A DNA stretch of 64,000 nt from Sulfurivermis fontis. GTDB lineage: Bacteria > Pseudomonadota > Gammaproteobacteria > Thiohalomonadales > Thiohalomonadaceae. The stretch spans positions 2,162,501 to 2,226,500 of the forward strand of contig NZ_AP018724.1 of assembly GCF_004001245.1 (NCBI RefSeq), given 5' to 3'. The notes below the pieces were generated by a model. The model had not been told where the DNA came from. It searched no databases and was given only the letters and a program-made list of their open reading frames with translations. Below are positions 4,116-62,248 of the stretch, piece after piece. The position numbers and the translations under genes are program-made. Numbering within the stretch: position 1 is the first letter of the stretch; the number at the start of each line of letters is the position of its first letter.

Positions 4116-5069
4116 TCAGGCGTTGGCGGCATCCTCGCGCAGCACCGCGATCAGTGCCTGCATGTCGTCCGGTGCCGGTACGCTCCATTCCATGTATTCG
4201 CCGCTGGACGGATGCGCCAGCCCCAGGCGCATGGCGTGCAGGGCCTGGCGCTTGAAGCCGTGCAGGGCGGTGCGCAGCGCCTCGCTGCAGCCGGCCGGGA
4301 AACGCAGGCGACCGCCGTACACCGGGTCGCCGACGATGGGGTGGTGGATGTGAGCCATGTGCACGCGGATCTGGTGGGTACGGCCGGTCTCCAGCCGCAC
4401 CGCCAGGCGGGTGTGGGCGCGAAAGCGTTCCACCAGGCGGTAATGGGTCACCGCCGGCTTGCCTGCGGTGGTGATGGCCTGGCGCTTGCGGTCCACCGGA
4501 TGGCGGCCGATGGGGGCGTCCACCGTGCCGCCGCCGGTCATCTCGCCCACCACCACCGTGTCGTATTCGCGGGTGAACTCGCGCGCCTGCAACGCCTGCA
4601 CCAGGGCGTTCTGCGCCTCCAGGGTGCGCGCCACCACCAACAGTCCCGAGGTGTCCTTGTCGAGGCGGTGCACGATACCGGCACGGGGCACCTGGGCCAG
4701 CTCGGGGGCATGATGCAGCAGGGCGTTGAGCAGGGTGCCGGCGGGATTGCCCGCCGCCGGATGCACCACCAGGCCGGCGGGCTTGTTGAGCACGATGAGG
4801 ACCGCGTCCTCGTAGACGATGTCCAGCGGGATGTCCTCTCCCTGGTGGCGTTCGTCCGCCTCCACCAACGCCTCCAGGGCGATGCGCTCGCCGCCCACCA
4901 CCTTGTCCTTGGGCTTGCACACCCGGCCGTCCACCAGCGCCTTGCCCTCCTTCACCCACTGGCTGAGACGGGCGCGGGAAAAATCGGGCAACAGCGCCGC
5001 CAGGGCCTGATCCAGCCGCTGGCCCGCCATCTCGGGTGGCACTTCCACCACATAATGCTTGCTAGTCAT
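4116..5069 (-). CDS. rluD: 23S rRNA pseudouridine synthase RluD
   Basis: Makes pseudouridines 1911, 1915 and 1917 in helix 69 of 23S rRNA. The 317-residue protein has an N-terminal S4 RNA-binding domain (about residues 17-75) and the RluA-type catalytic domain with HRLDKDTSG (134-142), whose Asp137 is the catalytic residue. An upstream in-frame ATG exists at 5117, but homology begins at MTSKHYVVEVP, so the ATG at 5069 is used. bamD starts divergently about 70 bp away, as in many gammaproteobacteria. Confidence 0.96.
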   Translation of the reverse strand: MTSKHYVVEVPPEMAGQRLDQALAALLPDFSRARLSQWVKEGKALVDGRVCKPKDKVVGGERIALEALVEADERHQGEDIPLDIVYEDAVLIVLNKPAGLVVHPAAGNPAGTLLNALLHHAPELAQVPRAGIVHRLDKDTSGLLVVARTLEAQNALVQALQAREFTREYDTVVVGEMTGGGTVDAPIGRHPVDRKRQAITTAGKPAVTHYRLVERFRAHTRLAVRLETGRTHQIRVHMAHIHHPIVGDPVYGGRLRFPAGCSEALRTALHGFKRQALHAMRLGLAHPSSGEYMEWSVPAPDDMQALIAVLREDAANA

Positions 5070-5139
5070 GTCTTGCCTTCGTGCCGGGGCCCATTCGGGA
5101 TATACTGCGCGGCACATGCCGTTTCAGGAATCGACAGTA

Positions 5140-5901
5140 ATGAGTTTTGCCTGCCGTCTGCTAGTTCTGCTGCTGTTCGTGCTCACCGGCACGGGTTGCT
5201 CCATCTTTCAGGAATACGATGAAACCGCCGGCTGGGATGCCAGTCAGTTGTACACTGCCGGCAAGGAGGCCCTCGACGAGGGCGACTACCAGAAGGCCAT
5301 CCAGCTCTACACCAAGCTGGAGGCGCGCTTCCCCTACGGCCGCTACACCCAGCAGGCCCAGTTGGAAACCGCCTATGTCCACTACAAGGACGGCGAGCCG
5401 CAGGCCGCCATCGCCGCGGCGGACCGCTTCATCAAGCTGCACCCGCGCCATCCGAACGTGGATTATGCCTACTACATGCGCGGGCTGGCCAGTTTCGACC
5501 CCGGCCGCAGCTTCTTGGATCGCTTTTTTCCCCAGGACAGCGCCCAGCGCGACCCCACCACGGCGCGCGAATCGTTCCGCTATTTCAGCGAACTGGTGCA
5601 GCGCTTCCCCACCAGCCGCTACAGCCAGGACGCCATCCAGCGCATGACCTACCTGCGCAACAATCTGGCACGCCACGAAATCCAGGTGGCCGACTACTAC
5701 CTGCGCCGCGGCGCCCCCCTGGCGGCCGCCAACCGCGGCAAATACGTGCTGGAGCATTACCAACGTACACCCTCGGTGCCCGACGCCCTGGAGATCATGG
5801 TGCGCGCCTACCGGGAAATGGGCATGGACGATCTGGCCGCCGACGCCCTGAAGGTGCTGGCGCAGAACCATCCGGAACGAGCGGCACAACTCGTACCCTG
5901 A
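5140..5901 (+). CDS. bamD: Outer membrane assembly lipoprotein BamD
   Basis: Essential lipoprotein of the BAM complex that folds beta-barrel proteins into the outer membrane. The 253-residue product has a lipoprotein signal ending in LTGTGC, with Cys20 as the lipidated residue, and TPR repeats throughout (for example EALDEGDYQKAIQLYTKLEARFPYG). The ATG at 5140 is chosen because it gives a proper signal peptide and AGGAA lies 9 bases upstream; in-frame ATGs further upstream would spoil the signal. It is divergent from rluD, a conserved pairing. Confidence 0.95.
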   Translation: MSFACRLLVLLLFVLTGTGCSIFQEYDETAGWDASQLYTAGKEALDEGDYQKAIQLYTKLEARFPYGRYTQQAQLETAYVHYKDGEPQAAIAAADRFIKLHPRHPNVDYAYYMRGLASFDPGRSFLDRFFPQDSAQRDPTTARESFRYFSELVQRFPTSRYSQDAIQRMTYLRNNLARHEIQVADYYLRRGAPLAAANRGKYVLEHYQRTPSVPDALEIMVRAYREMGMDDLAADALKVLAQNHPERAAQLVP

Positions 5902-5981
5902 ACGGCCGGTTCGAACGTCGGGGCGAGTCTCGCGACCCAAACCACCTGTCTGGGAACAACAACAAAGAGGAGGCAACAGCG

Positions 5982-6503
5982 ATGTGGGACTTCTTCGAAA
6001 CCGTGCGCCACCGCCATTCGGTGCGCAAATACCGCAGCGACATGGCCGTGGAACCGGAAAAACTGCACGCCATCCTGGAGATGGCCTGCGCGGCGCCCTC
6101 CGCCGGCGACCTGCAGTCCTACCACATCGCCGTGGTCACCGACCCGGCCCTGCGCCAGGGACTGGTGGAGGCCGCCGCCGGCCAGAACTTCATCGCCGAG
6201 GCACCGGTGACCCTGGTGTTCAGCAGCCACGCCGAACGCGCCGGCGCCAAGTACGGCGAACGTGGCCGCCAGCTCTACGCCCTGCAGGACGCCACCATCG
6301 CCGCCACCTACGCCCAGCTCGCCGTGGCCGCCGCCGGCCTCGGCTCCACCTGGGTGGGACAATTCGATGAGGCCGCCGTCTCCCGCCTGCTCAAGCTCGA
6401 CCCGGGGCTGCAGCCCATCGCCCTGCTCACCGTCGGCTACCCGGCGGAACTGCCGGAGCTGACCCCGCGGCGGCCGCTCACCGAGGTGGTCAGCTATCGC
6501 TGA
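5982..6503 (+). CDS. Nitroreductase-family FMN flavoprotein
   Basis: A 173-residue nitroreductase-fold protein. The N-terminal RHRHSVRKYRSD is the FMN phosphate-binding start of the family, AAPSAGDLQSYH binds flavin, and GLGSTWVGQFDE resembles the conserved GLG segment. The natural substrate cannot be deduced; relatives reduce quinones, nitro compounds or enones with NAD(P)H. A strong AGAGGAGG precedes the ATG. Its last codons and stop lie inside a perfect 14-bp hairpin that probably ends the transcript. Confidence 0.88.
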   Translation: MWDFFETVRHRHSVRKYRSDMAVEPEKLHAILEMACAAPSAGDLQSYHIAVVTDPALRQGLVEAAAGQNFIAEAPVTLVFSSHAERAGAKYGERGRQLYALQDATIAATYAQLAVAAAGLGSTWVGQFDEAAVSRLLKLDPGLQPIALLTVGYPAELPELTPRRPLTEVVSYR

Positions 6504-57346: not shown

Positions 57347-58105
57347 TCATACCGGGTTGTCGATGTCGATAAATTCATGATTGATAGCAAATTTCCGAGC
57401 CAAATACTCACCTAATGCCTGCACGCCATAACGCTCGGTGGCGTGATGGCCAGCACCGAAGTAATCGATACCCAGTTCGCGTGCCGCGTGCACCGTCTGC
57501 TCCGACACCTCGCCGCTGATGAAGCCATCCAGCCCCAGGGCCGCGGCCTGCTCGATCCAACCCTGGGCCGCCCCGCTGCACCAGCCGATGCGCCGCAGAG
57601 GACGGTCGCCGCCGCTGACATGCAACGGTGTCCGCCCCAGGCAACGGCCGATGTGGGCGGCCAGTTCCGCCCCGGACAGGCCCTGCGGCAGGGAACCGTG
57701 GAACGCGATGCCGCCGCCCGGTCCCTTGCCGAAGCGCCCCTCGACGGACAGGCCCAGCACCTGGCCGAGACGGGCGTTGTTACCCAGCTCGGCATGACCG
57801 TCCAGCGGCAGATGATAGGCCACCAGGCTGATGTCATTGGCCAGCAGGGACTTCAGCCGGCGCTGCTTCATGCCTACCACGCGGGGATCCTCCCCGTTCC
57901 AGAACCAGCCGTGATGCACCAGGAGGGCGTCGGCCCCGCGGACGATGGCCGCCTCGATCAGCGCCTGGCTGGCGGTGACACCGCTGACCAGCCGCCGCAC
58001 CTCGCCCCGCCCCTCCACCTGCAGACCGTTGGGACAGTAGTCCTGGTAATCGTCCACCTGCAGCAGATTGTTGCTCCAGGTCACAAGCTCGTTCAGTCGC
58101 ACCAT
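57347..58105 (-). CDS. Nif3-family dinuclear metal-centre protein
   Basis: 252-residue hexameric metal-binding protein (YbgI/Nif3 type 1). Metal-ligand motifs are VHHGWFW, AYHLPLDGH, and the C-terminal GISGEVSEQ-like FISGEVSEQ with FGAGHHATERYG. E. coli YbgI has been linked to GTP cyclohydrolase-like or RNA-related functions, but the activity is not settled. ATG 58105 is chosen over an upstream TTG. Divergent from the DegS/AlgW gene, as next to algW in Pseudomonas. Confidence 0.92.
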   Translation of the reverse strand: MVRLNELVTWSNNLLQVDDYQDYCPNGLQVEGRGEVRRLVSGVTASQALIEAAIVRGADALLVHHGWFWNGEDPRVVGMKQRRLKSLLANDISLVAYHLPLDGHAELGNNARLGQVLGLSVEGRFGKGPGGGIAFHGSLPQGLSGAELAAHIGRCLGRTPLHVSGGDRPLRRIGWCSGAAQGWIEQAAALGLDGFISGEVSEQTVHAARELGIDYFGAGHHATERYGVQALGEYLARKFAINHEFIDIDNPV

Positions 58106-58171
58106 GCCGCGCACCCGCAATTACGTTAAAATCAGCGCCTTCCATACAACCCTCGGCGCGGGACTCCCTGC

Positions 58172-59332
58172 ATGAAGCTCTACCGGCCCATCGTCTTTCT
58201 GGTCCAGTCCGTCACCATCGGCCTGGCCGTCGCCTTTCTGGTCCTGGTGTGGAAGCCGGACCTGCTCGACAACGGCAAGAAGGTGGTGGCCTTCATCGAA
58301 AGCACGCCGGGCGCGCGCCCGACACCGGCCTCCGGCCCCGTATCCTACGCAGACGCCGTGGAGTTTGCAGCCCCGGCGGTGGTGAACATCTATACCAGCA
58401 AGACCGTCACCACGCGCAGCCCGCTGTTCGACGACCCGCTGTTCCGCCACTTCTTCGGCGACCGTTTCGGTGCCGTGCCGCGCAGCCGCCAGGAGACCAG
58501 CCTCGGCTCCGGTGTCATCGTCAGCGACCAGGGCTACATCCTCACCAACAACCATGTGGTGGCCGAAGCGGAAGAAATCGAAGTCGCCCTGCGCGACGGG
58601 CGCACGGCCCGTGGCAAGGTGGTGGGCACCGATCCGGACACCGATCTCGCCGTGGTCAAGGTGGAGCTGGGCGACCTGCCCGCCATCGTCCTGGGCGACT
58701 CCGAGCAGCTGCGTGTAGGTGACGTGGTGCTGGCCATCGGCAATCCCTTCGGTGTCGGCCAGACCGTCACCCTGGGCATCGTCAGCGCCACCGGCCGCAG
58801 CCAGCTCGGCATCAGCACCTTCGAGAACTTCATCCAGACCGATGCCGCCATCAACCCGGGCAACTCCGGCGGCGCCCTGATCAACGCCGGCGGCGAACTG
58901 GTCGGCATCAATACCGCCATATTCTCCCGTACCGGTGGCTCCCAGGGCATCGGCTTCGCCATTCCGGTGAGCCTGGCGCGCGGCGTGATGCAGCAGATCA
59001 TCGAACAGGGCCGCGTCAGCCGCGGCTGGCTCGGCGTGGAAATTCAGGAAATGACTGCGGCCCTGGCCGAGTCCTTCGGCCTCAGTGAACAGCGCGGCAT
59101 CATCATCGCCGGCGTGCTCAAACGCGGCCCGGCCGATCGGGCCGGCCTGCAGCCGGGTGATGTGATCCTGGAAATCAACGGCAACCCCATGCGCGATGTG
59201 CGCACCGCCCTCAACGTCATCACCCAGACCAAGCCGGGCCAGCGCATCCGCGTCAAGGGACTGCGCAACCGCAAGACCTTCGAACTGGAGGCCGAGGTGG
59301 CGGAACGGCCGGTGCAGAACACCGAACAGTAA
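58172..59332 (+). CDS. Periplasmic serine protease of the DegS/AlgW type
   Basis: 386 residues: an uncleaved N-terminal membrane anchor (about residues 7-28), a trypsin-like domain with His128 (TNNHVV), Asp158 (DTDLAVVK) and Ser232 (INPGNSGGAL), and one PDZ domain (RGWLGVEIQEM... GIIIAGVLKRGPADRAGL). One PDZ plus a membrane anchor fits DegS/AlgW, which start RseA/MucA cleavage to release sigma-E when misfolded porin ends bind the PDZ. The nif3 and his/murA neighbours match the algW locus of Pseudomonas. Confidence 0.93.
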   Translation: MKLYRPIVFLVQSVTIGLAVAFLVLVWKPDLLDNGKKVVAFIESTPGARPTPASGPVSYADAVEFAAPAVVNIYTSKTVTTRSPLFDDPLFRHFFGDRFGAVPRSRQETSLGSGVIVSDQGYILTNNHVVAEAEEIEVALRDGRTARGKVVGTDPDTDLAVVKVELGDLPAIVLGDSEQLRVGDVVLAIGNPFGVGQTVTLGIVSATGRSQLGISTFENFIQTDAAINPGNSGGALINAGGELVGINTAIFSRTGGSQGIGFAIPVSLARGVMQQIIEQGRVSRGWLGVEIQEMTAALAESFGLSEQRGIIIAGVLKRGPADRAGLQPGDVILEINGNPMRDVRTALNVITQTKPGQRIRVKGLRNRKTFELEAEVAERPVQNTEQ

Positions 59333-59860
59333 TCAGAACAAGGCGCGGAGCTTGTTCCACAGCGCCGTGAAGTGGGCCACCGCCGCCGGATCGCTCTGCT
59401 CCGGCGTCCACAGGTGGCTGCCTATGCCCAGTTGGGCCAGCACGTACTCGCCCAGAGCAAGCTGTCCGACGGCGGTGTAACCCGTCGCCAGTTGGCCGAT
59501 GCCGAACTCCACCCCCAGCGCCAGCTGCCCCAGCGCGTACCAGCCGCTGGCCGCCTGCCCCAATCCGAACAGCAGACCCACCCCGGCCTGCCCGATGGCA
59601 CACAGACCAAAGGCCGCCTGCCCCAGGGCGATACCCCCCACCGCCACCCGGCCCACGGCGATCACCCCGCGTGCCGTGGTGAGTCGACCGGTCTGCGGGT
59701 CGATGCCACGGGTGTAGTGCAGCAATGGCCAGCCGAGCAGTTCGGCATGGGAGGTGAATTCGGCGTAGTAGCGCCCCTGCTCCGACAGGTGGGTGCGCCA
59801 GGTGCCCCAGGCGGTCTTTTCGATTTTGTAGTCGACGGGTTGCAGCAGCAGGTTCTTCAT
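59333..59860 (-). CDS. Unknown protein with eight decapeptide repeats
   Basis: 175 residues, not recognised. Residues 1-60 form a soluble N-terminal part (KTAWGTWRTHLSEQGRYYAE). Residues 65-147 consist of eight consecutive units of 10 or 11 residues with the pattern G-x-x-(A/G)-(L/I/V)-G-Q-(L/A)-A-x, for example GGIALGQAAF and GWYALGQLAL. A short C-terminal tail follows (PEQSDPAAVAHFTALWNKL). There is no signal peptide. It starts 18 bp after hisC on the same strand and its stop abuts the stop of the converging protease gene, so it is probably the last gene of the his operon. The regular glycine spacing suggests a solenoid or tightly packed helical hairpins in a membrane. Confidence 0.75.
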   Translation of the reverse strand: MKNLLLQPVDYKIEKTAWGTWRTHLSEQGRYYAEFTSHAELLGWPLLHYTRGIDPQTGRLTTARGVIAVGRVAVGGIALGQAAFGLCAIGQAGVGLLFGLGQAASGWYALGQLALGVEFGIGQLATGYTAVGQLALGEYVLAQLGIGSHLWTPEQSDPAAVAHFTALWNKLRALF

Positions 59861-59878
59861 GCCGGTCCCCGCGCTGTC

Positions 59879-60937
59879 CTAGGCCAGGATTTCCCGCAGC
59901 GCCGCCACCAGTGCCGCATTCTGCTCCGGCGTACCGATGGTGATGCGCAGGTGCTGATCGATGCGCGGCAGGCGGAAGTGGCGCACGATGATGCCGCGCG
60001 CGCGCAGCGCCGCCGCCAGTTCCGCCGCATCGCGCTGCGGGTGGGTGGCGAAGATGAAATTGGCCGCCGATGGCGGCATGCGGAAACCGAGCTGTTCCAG
60101 CTCGCGGCACAACGCATCGCGGCTTTCCATCACTGCCCGGCGCGTGTGCTCGAAGTGCGTGCGATCCTCCATCGCCGCCACGCCGCCGATGAGGGCGAGG
60201 CGGTCCAGCGGATAGGAATTGAAGCTGTCCTTCACCCGTTCCAGCGCCTGGATCAGCTCGGGTTGACCCAGCGCAAAGCCGACACGCAGGCCGGCCAGTG
60301 AGCGCGACTTGGACAGGGTCTGCACCACCAGCAGGTTGGGATACCTGTCCACCAGGACCACGGCGCTGGCGCCGCCGAAATCCACGTAGGCCTCGTCCAC
60401 CACCACCACCGAATCGGTGTTGCGTTGCAGCAACCACTCGATCTCGGAAAGCGGCAACAGGCGGCCGGTGGGGGCGTTGGGGTTGGCGAAGATGATGCCG
60501 GCGTTGGGCTGCAGATAGTCGGCGACGCGCAGCTCGAAATCGTCCGTGAGCGGCACCGTCCGGTAGTCGATGCCGTACAGGCCGCAGTACACCGGATAGA
60601 AGCTGTAGGTGATGTCCGGGAACAGCAGCGGCGCCGGATGCTGGAACAGGCCGAGGAATACATGGGCCAGCACCTCGTCGGAGCCGTTGCCGACGAACAC
60701 CTGCGCGGGGGTGAGACCATAGTAGTCGGCCACCGCCTGGCGCAGCGCCATGCCGGTGGGATCGGGGTACAGGCGCAGACCGTCGTTCACCGCGGCACCG
60801 ATCGCCGCCAGGGCGCGCGGCGACGGGCCGTAGGGATTCTCGTTGGTGTTGAGCTTGACCAGATTCGGCAGCCTGGGCTGCTCGCCCGGGACGTAGGGCG
60901 ACAGCCGGTGCACCAGTGGGCTCCAGTAGCGGCTCAT
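59879..60937 (-). CDS. hisC: Histidinol-phosphate aminotransferase
   Basis: PLP enzyme making histidinol phosphate from imidazole acetol phosphate. 352 residues of aminotransferase class I/II fold: [13 protein letters not shown] substrate region, [24 protein letters not shown], and the PLP lysine in [18 protein letters not shown]. Follows hisD on the same strand by 12 bp. Confidence 0.96.
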
Positions 60938-60949
60938 GGACGGCTCCGG

Positions 60950-62248
60950 TTACGGCTTGATGCGGAATTCGGCGGAGCGGGCATGGGCGGTGAGGCCCTC
61001 GCCGCGCGCCAGCACCGAGGCCACCTTGCCCAGCTCCGAGGCGCCGTCCGGCGAGCACATGATGAGCGAGGAGCGCTTCTGGAAATCGTACACCCCCAGC
61101 GGCGAGGAGAAACGCGCGGTGCGCGAGGTGGGCAACACATGGTTGGGACCGGCGCAGTAGTCGCCCACCGCTTCGGCGGTGTGGCGGCCCATGAAGATGG
61201 CACCGGCGTGCTTGATCTTCCTGGCCATCGCCTGCGGGTCGGCCACCGACAGTTCCAGATGCTCCGGCGCGATGTGGTTGGCCACGGCGACGGCCTCGTC
61301 GAGGTCGCGCACCTTGATCAGCGCGCCGCGCGCGTACAGCGAGGTGCGGATGATCTCGGCGCGCTCCATGGTGGGCAGCAGACGCGCGATGCTGGCCTGT
61401 ACCTGGTCGAGGAAGGCGGCATCGGGGCAGAGCAGGATGGACTGCGCGTCCTCGTCGTGCTCGGCCTGGGAGAACAGGTCCATGGCGATCCAGTCCGGAT
61501 GGGTCTGGCCGTCGCAGACGATGAGGATCTCGGAAGGACCGGCGATCATGTCGATGCCGACGGAGCCGAACACCATGCCCTTGGCGGTGGCGACGTAGAT
61601 GTTGCCGGGGCCGACGATCTTGTCCACCTGCGGCACGCTCTCGGTGCCGTAGGCCAGCGCGGCCACGGCCTGGGCACCGCCGATGGCGAACACGCGATCG
61701 ACACCCGCCACCGCGGCAGCGGCGAACACCAGCTCGTTGACCACACCGTCCGGTGTCGGCACCACCATGATCAGTTCCTCCACCCCGGCCACCTTGGCAG
61801 GAATGGCATTCATCAGCACCGACGACGGATAGGCCGCCTTGCCACCGGGCACATACAGGCCGACGCGATCCAGCGGCGTCACCTGCTGGCCCAGCACGGT
61901 GCCGTCGGCCTCGGTATAACTCCAGGAATCCACCTTCTGGTGTTCGTGATAGGCGCGCACGCGCGCCGCCGACTGCTCCAGTGCCTGGCGCTGTGCGGGA
62001 CCGATCCGGCCCAGGGCCTCTTCCAGACGGGCGCGCGGGATCTCCAGTTCGGCCATGCTCGTGGCCTGCATGCGATCGAAGCGGTTGGTGTACTCCAGCA
62101 CCGCCGCATCACCGCGTTGCTTCACCGCCTGCAGGATCTCGCGCACGACGGCGTTGACCTTGTCGTCGGACACGCCTTCCCAGGCCAGCAGCTGATCCAG
62201 CGCCTTCCAGAAATCAGGGGTGGTGGTATCGAGTCGTTTGATGGTCAT
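60950..62248 (-). CDS. hisD: Histidinol dehydrogenase
   Basis: Zinc enzyme doing the last two oxidations to histidine. 432 residues with [18 protein letters not shown] and [15 protein letters not shown]-free zinc region [17 protein letters not shown] (Gln/His ligands) and catalytic EHLELSV. The ATG at 62248 gives the family start [13 protein letters not shown]; an in-frame start ten codons upstream lies in repeat R5 and encodes no conserved residues. Confidence 0.96.

Follow-up and report, generated by a model that had tools for sequence, protein, structure and literature searches.

A decapeptide-repeat protein encoded behind hisC in Sulfurivermis fontis: a candidate beta-solenoid domain also found fused to zinc ribbons and ECF sigma factors

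The window analyzed here is a stretch of 64,000 nucleotides of the gammaproteobacterium Sulfurivermis fontis (contig NZ_AP018724.1). Towards its end a gene for a decapeptide-repeat protein is the last in a row consisting of murA (assigned by eye), hisG, hisD and hisC, with hisG and hisD identified by Pfam, and it meets a convergent protease gene stop to stop (Table 1). An earlier note on this DNA thought it probable that the repeat gene is co-transcribed with the histidine genes, and both the short gap behind hisC, 18 nt long with a GGGGA sequence in it, and a 4-nt overlap of the repeat gene with a hisC-like ORF in genome G002 bear this out. The G002 ORF (positions 4871-6001 of locus L007) appears by eye to be quite unlike the window hisC, as if one aminotransferase gene had been exchanged for another at this site. 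In genome G004, a small membrane protein gene and a TerC gene lie between hisC and the repeat gene. Co-transcription is likely, but beyond the genus the repeat gene has other neighbors (by eye), so the neighborhood says little about function. For the same reason we reject a link to histidine synthesis, and the position in the his operon looks incidental.

Table 1. Features at the repeat-gene locus, in window coordinates.
Feature	Position	Strand	Basis or remark
Trypsin-PDZ (S1C/DegQ-like) protease gene, convergent	58172-59332	plus	Pfam Trypsin_2 and PDZ; stops abut
Decapeptide-repeat protein gene, 175 aa	59336-59860	minus	ORF call, ATG start; stop codon at 59333-59335
Tail DPxAVxxFxxLW, residues 157-175	59336-59392	minus	Predicted amphipathic helix in both models
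Eight decapeptide units, residues 65-146	59423-59668	minus	Prevailing pattern G-x-h-[AG]-h-[GA]-Q-h-[AG]-h
Non-repetitive cap E-F-x-S-x3-LxGxPLxHxxxGxxPxTG, residues 33-62	59675-59764	minus	Signature of the domain family
N-terminal segment TxxGxWR, residues 1-32	59765-59860	minus	Alignments; strands predicted
GGGGA ribosome-binding-like site	59866-59870	minus	By eye, in the 18-nt gap after hisC
Aminotransferase gene (upstream neighbor), assigned as hisC from its place behind hisG and hisD	59879-60937	minus	Pfam Aminotran_1_2

The opposite strand holds a 309-aa ORF (59372-60301, plus strand) across the repeat gene and hisC, with no in-frame stop under the repeat gene in the window. Two orthologues from the same genus each have one stop in this frame, and the ORF therefore looks like a side effect of high GC content. 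The repeat gene itself appears constrained within the genus, with dN/dS of about 0.12-0.17 (dN 0.107-0.115, dS 0.63-0.95) in the three pairs formed by the window gene and its two same-genus orthologues.

The repeat described in the earlier note is firmly supported. Its eight units begin at residues 65, 75, 85, 95, 106, 116, 127 and 137; those from 95 and 116 have 11 residues and the other six have 10. Self-identity of residues 65-147 at a lag of 10 is 25 of 73 positions, against 9.9 in shuffled sequences (z 5.4, reached by none of 20,000 shuffles), and at a lag of 21 it is 23 of 62 (z 5.7, again none of 20,000). A lag of 5 gives 23 of 78 (z 4.4, one shuffle in 20,000), which points to a five-residue sub-period within the repeat. 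When 218 ORFs of at least 100 aa in the window were ranked by lag-10 signal, this one came first (z 5.1, with 4.5 for the runner-up). Tandem Repeats Finder, applied to DNA positions 58000-61000, reported only 2.2 copies of a 9-bp element, so the repeat is maintained by selection on the protein. Some details of the unit needed adjustment: the Gly-Gln pair, said to be kept, is present in six of the eight units, while unit 1 has Gly-Arg and unit 8 Ala-Gln, and the Ala-Leu positions are more variable than the unit string of the earlier note implied. The repeat is not lost among orthologues, as five of them (84%, 85%, 61%, 58% and 55% identical) keep all eight unit lengths.

Alignment of 13 members places this repeat between two conserved elements. 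In the cap, P45, G52 and G58 are invariant and S37, G43 and L46 nearly so, while in the tail D157, P158, A160, V161 and F164 do not vary, although an orthologue from outside this alignment (G436) differs at V161. Further invariant positions are A63, G65, A78, G80, G85, G95, G122, A130 and G132. The segment ahead of the cap, residues 1-32, is common to close orthologues, and other members have a zinc ribbon or a coiled-coil-like stretch in its place. In nine members with Gln-anchored units, Gln occupies 63 of 69 filled cells and Arg the other 6; L014-L017 have Gly instead of Gln, and the row of Gln is thus a subfamily trait. P45 and D157 are 112 positions apart in ten of 16 members; single members have 111 and 102, two have 101 and L017 has 96, and the form fused to an ECF sigma factor gives no measurable value. 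The three members at 101-102 align with a clean gap of 10 columns, equivalent to one unit fewer, while the value of 96 does not correspond to a whole number of units. The tail helix of the window protein has a hydrophobic moment of 0.45 (shuffle p 0.021); for amphipathicity of the C-terminal helix, six of the 13 members have p below 0.05 and three have p of 0.25-0.34. Judged by these sequence features, the cap, 7-8 decapeptide units and DPxAVxxF tail define a domain family that is uncatalogued in the libraries searched. The window protein has the cap pattern [FYW]-x-[ST]-x5-G-x-P-L ahead of its repeat, the 7-8 Gly/Ala-rich units and the tail; the ECF branch lacks the tail.

The earlier note had called the product an unknown protein, and we found no clear match to a characterized family in Pfam, NCBIfam, PHROGs, PADLOC or PDB sequences to change that view. 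With E values up to 10 the window protein has no match in Pfam, NCBIfam, PHROGs or PDB sequences. Searched against Pfam, three of the 13 members matched zinc-ribbon families and all other matches were weak (among the best 25 of 38 families, E up to 1), and the 18 NCBIfam families they matched were likewise weak apart from zinc ribbons. A search of PDB with the family profile gave five matches, all with E of 0.64 or worse. For a role in defense, PADLOC offered one match at E 0.056 in one of the 13 members. A mobile or phage origin was considered and set aside, as there was no match in plasmids or phages, nor in viral contigs, the contigs having been scanned by peptide pattern. Among the titles and abstracts returned by literature searches on decapeptide repeats, solenoids, ECF extensions, membrane solenoids and YadA or pentapeptide proteins, none treats the cap-decapeptide family.

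The distribution of the domain is patchy in the class. Counting the genome of the window, carriers number 5 of 56 relatives, 4 of 20 genomes of the order and 5 of 369 genomes of the class sample (E up to 1e-5). The phylum sample (E up to 1e-3) gave 5 of 299, or 4 of 299 without L020, a 34-residue match at E 1e-4 that we did not trust. We also set aside L018 and L021, which are two frames of one broken gene: genome G269 apparently has a damaged copy of the domain gene, with the matched parts in different frames. Scanning the GTDB collection with two peptide patterns produced 199 candidates, from which 11 loci were accepted; three of these (L006, L007 and L009) are apparently from genomes already counted. 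The 11 loci come from Gammaproteobacteria, Desulfonema, Desulfobacca, a member of the Planctomycetota, a member of the Omnitrophota and beta-type proteobacteria, and with Desulfonema and Desulfobacca presumably belonging to the Desulfobacterota, the domain is present in three other phyla. As the scan detects only close spellings of the patterns, this distribution is a lower bound.

One recurrent neighbor was considered as a possible partner. A small membrane protein of 217-219 aa, multi-spanning by eye, is encoded near the repeat gene in genomes G004 and G053 (loci L006, 4540-5190, and L030, 6234-6890). The copies from these two distantly related genomes are 67% identical, with no match in NCBIfam and none in Pfam for the one copy tested there. 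It occurs in 2 of the 56 relatives, both carriers of the repeat gene, but of the 10 genomes in the class sample that encode it, only one has the repeat gene. We therefore rejected a cassette of the two genes, the link being weak with nine of ten carriers lacking the repeat gene.

The domain also occurs in fusions. An N-terminal zinc ribbon precedes it in L011-L013 and in L017 (Zn_Ribbon_1, E 1.9e-6), and the N-terminus of L014-L016 looks coiled-coil-like by eye. In L019 the domain follows sigma-70 regions 2 (E 2.9e-14) and 4 (E 2.2e-13) and a set of hydrophobic segments. Within the family to which the L019 genome belongs, one family of the class, 8 of 61 genomes have a match to the domain, and all eight ORFs are the same ECF fusion as read by eye, with Pfam and NCBIfam run on one of them. 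The whole ORFs (L037-L044) are ECF sigma factors of 534-552 aa with several hydrophobic segments and the domain at the C-terminus. Homology of the domain to the ECF fusions is supported by a profile E value of 8.0e-9, and the cap alone, with the repeats removed, matches the ECF-fused form with a profile match probability of 96.9%, so the link does not depend on the low-complexity repeats. In each of the eight ECF fusions, hydrophobic segments precede the cap and another lies close to the C-terminus; by eye, the segment count and the positive-inside rule disagree on the side of the membrane where the domain would lie. C-terminal extensions of ECF sigma factors are described as regulatory in PMC8999054, which suggests that the domain may be a sensory or scaffold module. 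The earlier statement that nothing in the sequence tells the function was thus too strong, as the cap ties the protein to others that bear zinc ribbons and to ECF sigma factors that contain membrane-like segments.

To consider the fold of the repeat, AlphaFold2 was run with 11 sequences for the window protein and with nine for the Desulfonema orthologue L008 (61% identical); L015, which contains undetermined residues, and L004 were left out of both jobs. The window-protein model has a pLDDT of 60.6, with strands at 124-131, 134-141 and 144-149 and a partly helical stretch below 50 at residues 68-111. For the Desulfonema orthologue, one of five models reaches a mean pLDDT of 78.0 and the other four lie at 47.3-50.2. 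This model has strands at 63-69, 72-79 and 82-89, a stretch below 50 at 91-101, and a single unbroken run of strand assignments from 103 to 151. Because the strand assignment continues across the corners, it points to a parallel solenoid. The model is beta-solenoid-like and does not distinguish the right-handed quadrilateral beta-helix of the pentapeptide repeat proteins, which has four five-residue faces per coil, from coils of another length or handedness. On the strength of the orthologue model, we lean somewhat towards the repeats forming a solenoid of some kind. The earlier note had held the unit to be too hydrophobic for a usual pentapeptide or hexapeptide solenoid; profile searches agree with that, but a solenoid as such is not thereby excluded, given the orthologue model.

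The same stretch might instead be an integral membrane segment of two or three helices packed by glycine zippers, in an otherwise ordinary small membrane protein. Four 19-residue windows of the protein have a Kyte-Doolittle value of at least 1.6 (best 1.78), the repeats of the ECF fusions hold hydrophobic runs of 46-54 residues, and the first AlphaFold2 model has a helix at 68-94, albeit a doubtful one with pLDDT near 30. The periodicities, however, are 5 and 10 rather than the 3.6 residues of a helical turn, no charged loops separate the would-be helices, the Desulfonema model gives the repeat an all-beta structure, and three relatives lack exactly 10 columns. Hydrophobicity power peaks at 138-152 degrees in all six members chosen for this comparison. 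The peak exceeds the 99th percentile of shuffled sequences for L017 and the ECF form and falls just under it for L016; the window protein's 152-degree peak (5.2; 99th percentile 8.7) is within the range of shuffles, and L008 and L011 are also below. No peak at 96-104 degrees is found among the best four of the window protein, while L016 has one at 104-106 degrees, near the helical value, its 106-degree peak being second to that at 142. Taken together, we regard the helical reading as rather unlikely.

Foldseek against PDB returned nothing below E 1.3 for the Desulfonema model or 0.15 for the window-protein model, and the best match in a viral fold library had E 0.17. The N-domain of KhtT headed the matches for the window-protein model (Z 6.3, rmsd 4.1, 58 aligned, residues 8-73) and was dropped from consideration, being absent among the 50 matches listed for the better model. 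For the Desulfonema model, VIA places a YadA-like head first (3s6l; Z 5.1, rmsd 6.8, 107 aligned), and the protein might accordingly be a short-coil relative of the left-handed YadA-head beta-roll, forming an intracellular oligomer with h-A-h-G strands around a symmetry axis. The SVAIG motif found on the inner strands of YadA heads, as given in PMC2483945 and PMC2942831, does resemble h-A-h-G. A Z of 5.1 is nevertheless in the range that the tool assigns to common arrangements, and no YadA head is among the 50 Foldseek matches listed. YadA head-repeat profiles do not match the window protein or five relatives, and in Pfam these relatives have only chance matches to other families, with neither a YadA-head nor a pentapeptide family among them. 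Heads of trimeric autotransporter adhesins (TAA) moreover sit on secreted proteins, while no signal peptide (judged by eye), stalk or anchor is evident in the window protein, and 175 aa leave no room for a translocator. Kinship with YadA heads therefore seems unlikely to us.

A pentapeptide-type quadrilateral beta-helix with a 20-residue coil would account for the five-residue sub-period, and h-[AG]-h-G-x would alternate inward and outward as in that fold. The pentapeptide repeat family has Asp or Asn at the position where the present family has Ala or Gly, however, and the absence of one 10-residue unit, or the presence of an 11-residue one, would upset a 20-residue coil. No Pfam pentapeptide family matches the window protein with E up to 10, although HMMER filters may drop weak pentapeptide families from such a search. 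We think this fold quite unlikely here.

The reading that we prefer, tentatively and at somewhat less than even confidence as a whole, is that of a cytosolic, membrane-associated, self-associating hydrophobic beta-solenoid that serves as a sensory or scaffold module. A beta cap (residues about 11-62) would begin a short-face solenoid of eight units, which the amphipathic C-terminal helix would close. Each unit would supply two faces of five residues, h-[AG]-h-G-x, the corners being formed by Gly and Gly-Gln; the hydrophobic side chains would fill a thin core and, we infer, also lie at the surface. A greasy surface of this kind could allow the solenoid to stack on itself and to lie on the cytoplasmic membrane with the help of the amphipathic tail, in a role of membrane-associated assembly or sensing. 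In other lineages the same module is fused to zinc ribbons or ECF sigma factors, and the window protein is its free-standing form. A cytosolic location is consistent with the lack of a signal peptide evident by eye and with the zinc ribbons of four relatives.

The solenoid might alternatively be embedded in the membrane or cap it, sensing the state of the envelope and wired in one lineage to an ECF sigma factor, with the window gene again free-standing. With one coil per unit and a rise of 4.8 A, the value given for another solenoid in PMC13123833, eight coils would span about 38 A, near the thickness of a bilayer, and their hydrophobic faces would point outward. We consider this very unlikely.

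The domain is conserved, occurs in several phyla and is joined to sigma factors and zinc ribbons, and the libraries searched do not contain it; its signature of cap, decapeptide pattern and DPxAVxxF tail makes it annotatable. If the membrane contact proposed for the cytosolic solenoid is true, it would be an unusual working mode for a beta-solenoid, and the ECF fusions would give a testable read-out.

Compared with known systems, the family shares with the pentapeptide repeat proteins (PMC8145042) the five-residue sub-period and a likely beta-solenoid; it differs in its Ala/Gly second position, Gly/Gln corners, 11-residue units and lack of a family match. With YadA-like heads it shares the h-A-h-G strand motif (SVAIG), repeated units and the top, if weak, structural match, but its units are of 10 residues, the repeat is almost entirely hydrophobic, the protein is apparently cytosolic without stalk or anchor, and no sequence family matches. 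The Knotted Solenoids are beta-solenoids in which, according to PMC13123833, exposed hydrophobic residues promote dimerization; theirs is a triangular knotted fold, and they may be taken by analogy as a precedent for self-association, not as evidence of kinship. As for the C-terminal extensions of ECF sigma factors, one branch of the cap-decapeptide family forms such an extension; a sigma domain is lacking in the window protein, and the passages of PMC8999054 seen make no reference to the cap-decapeptide domain.
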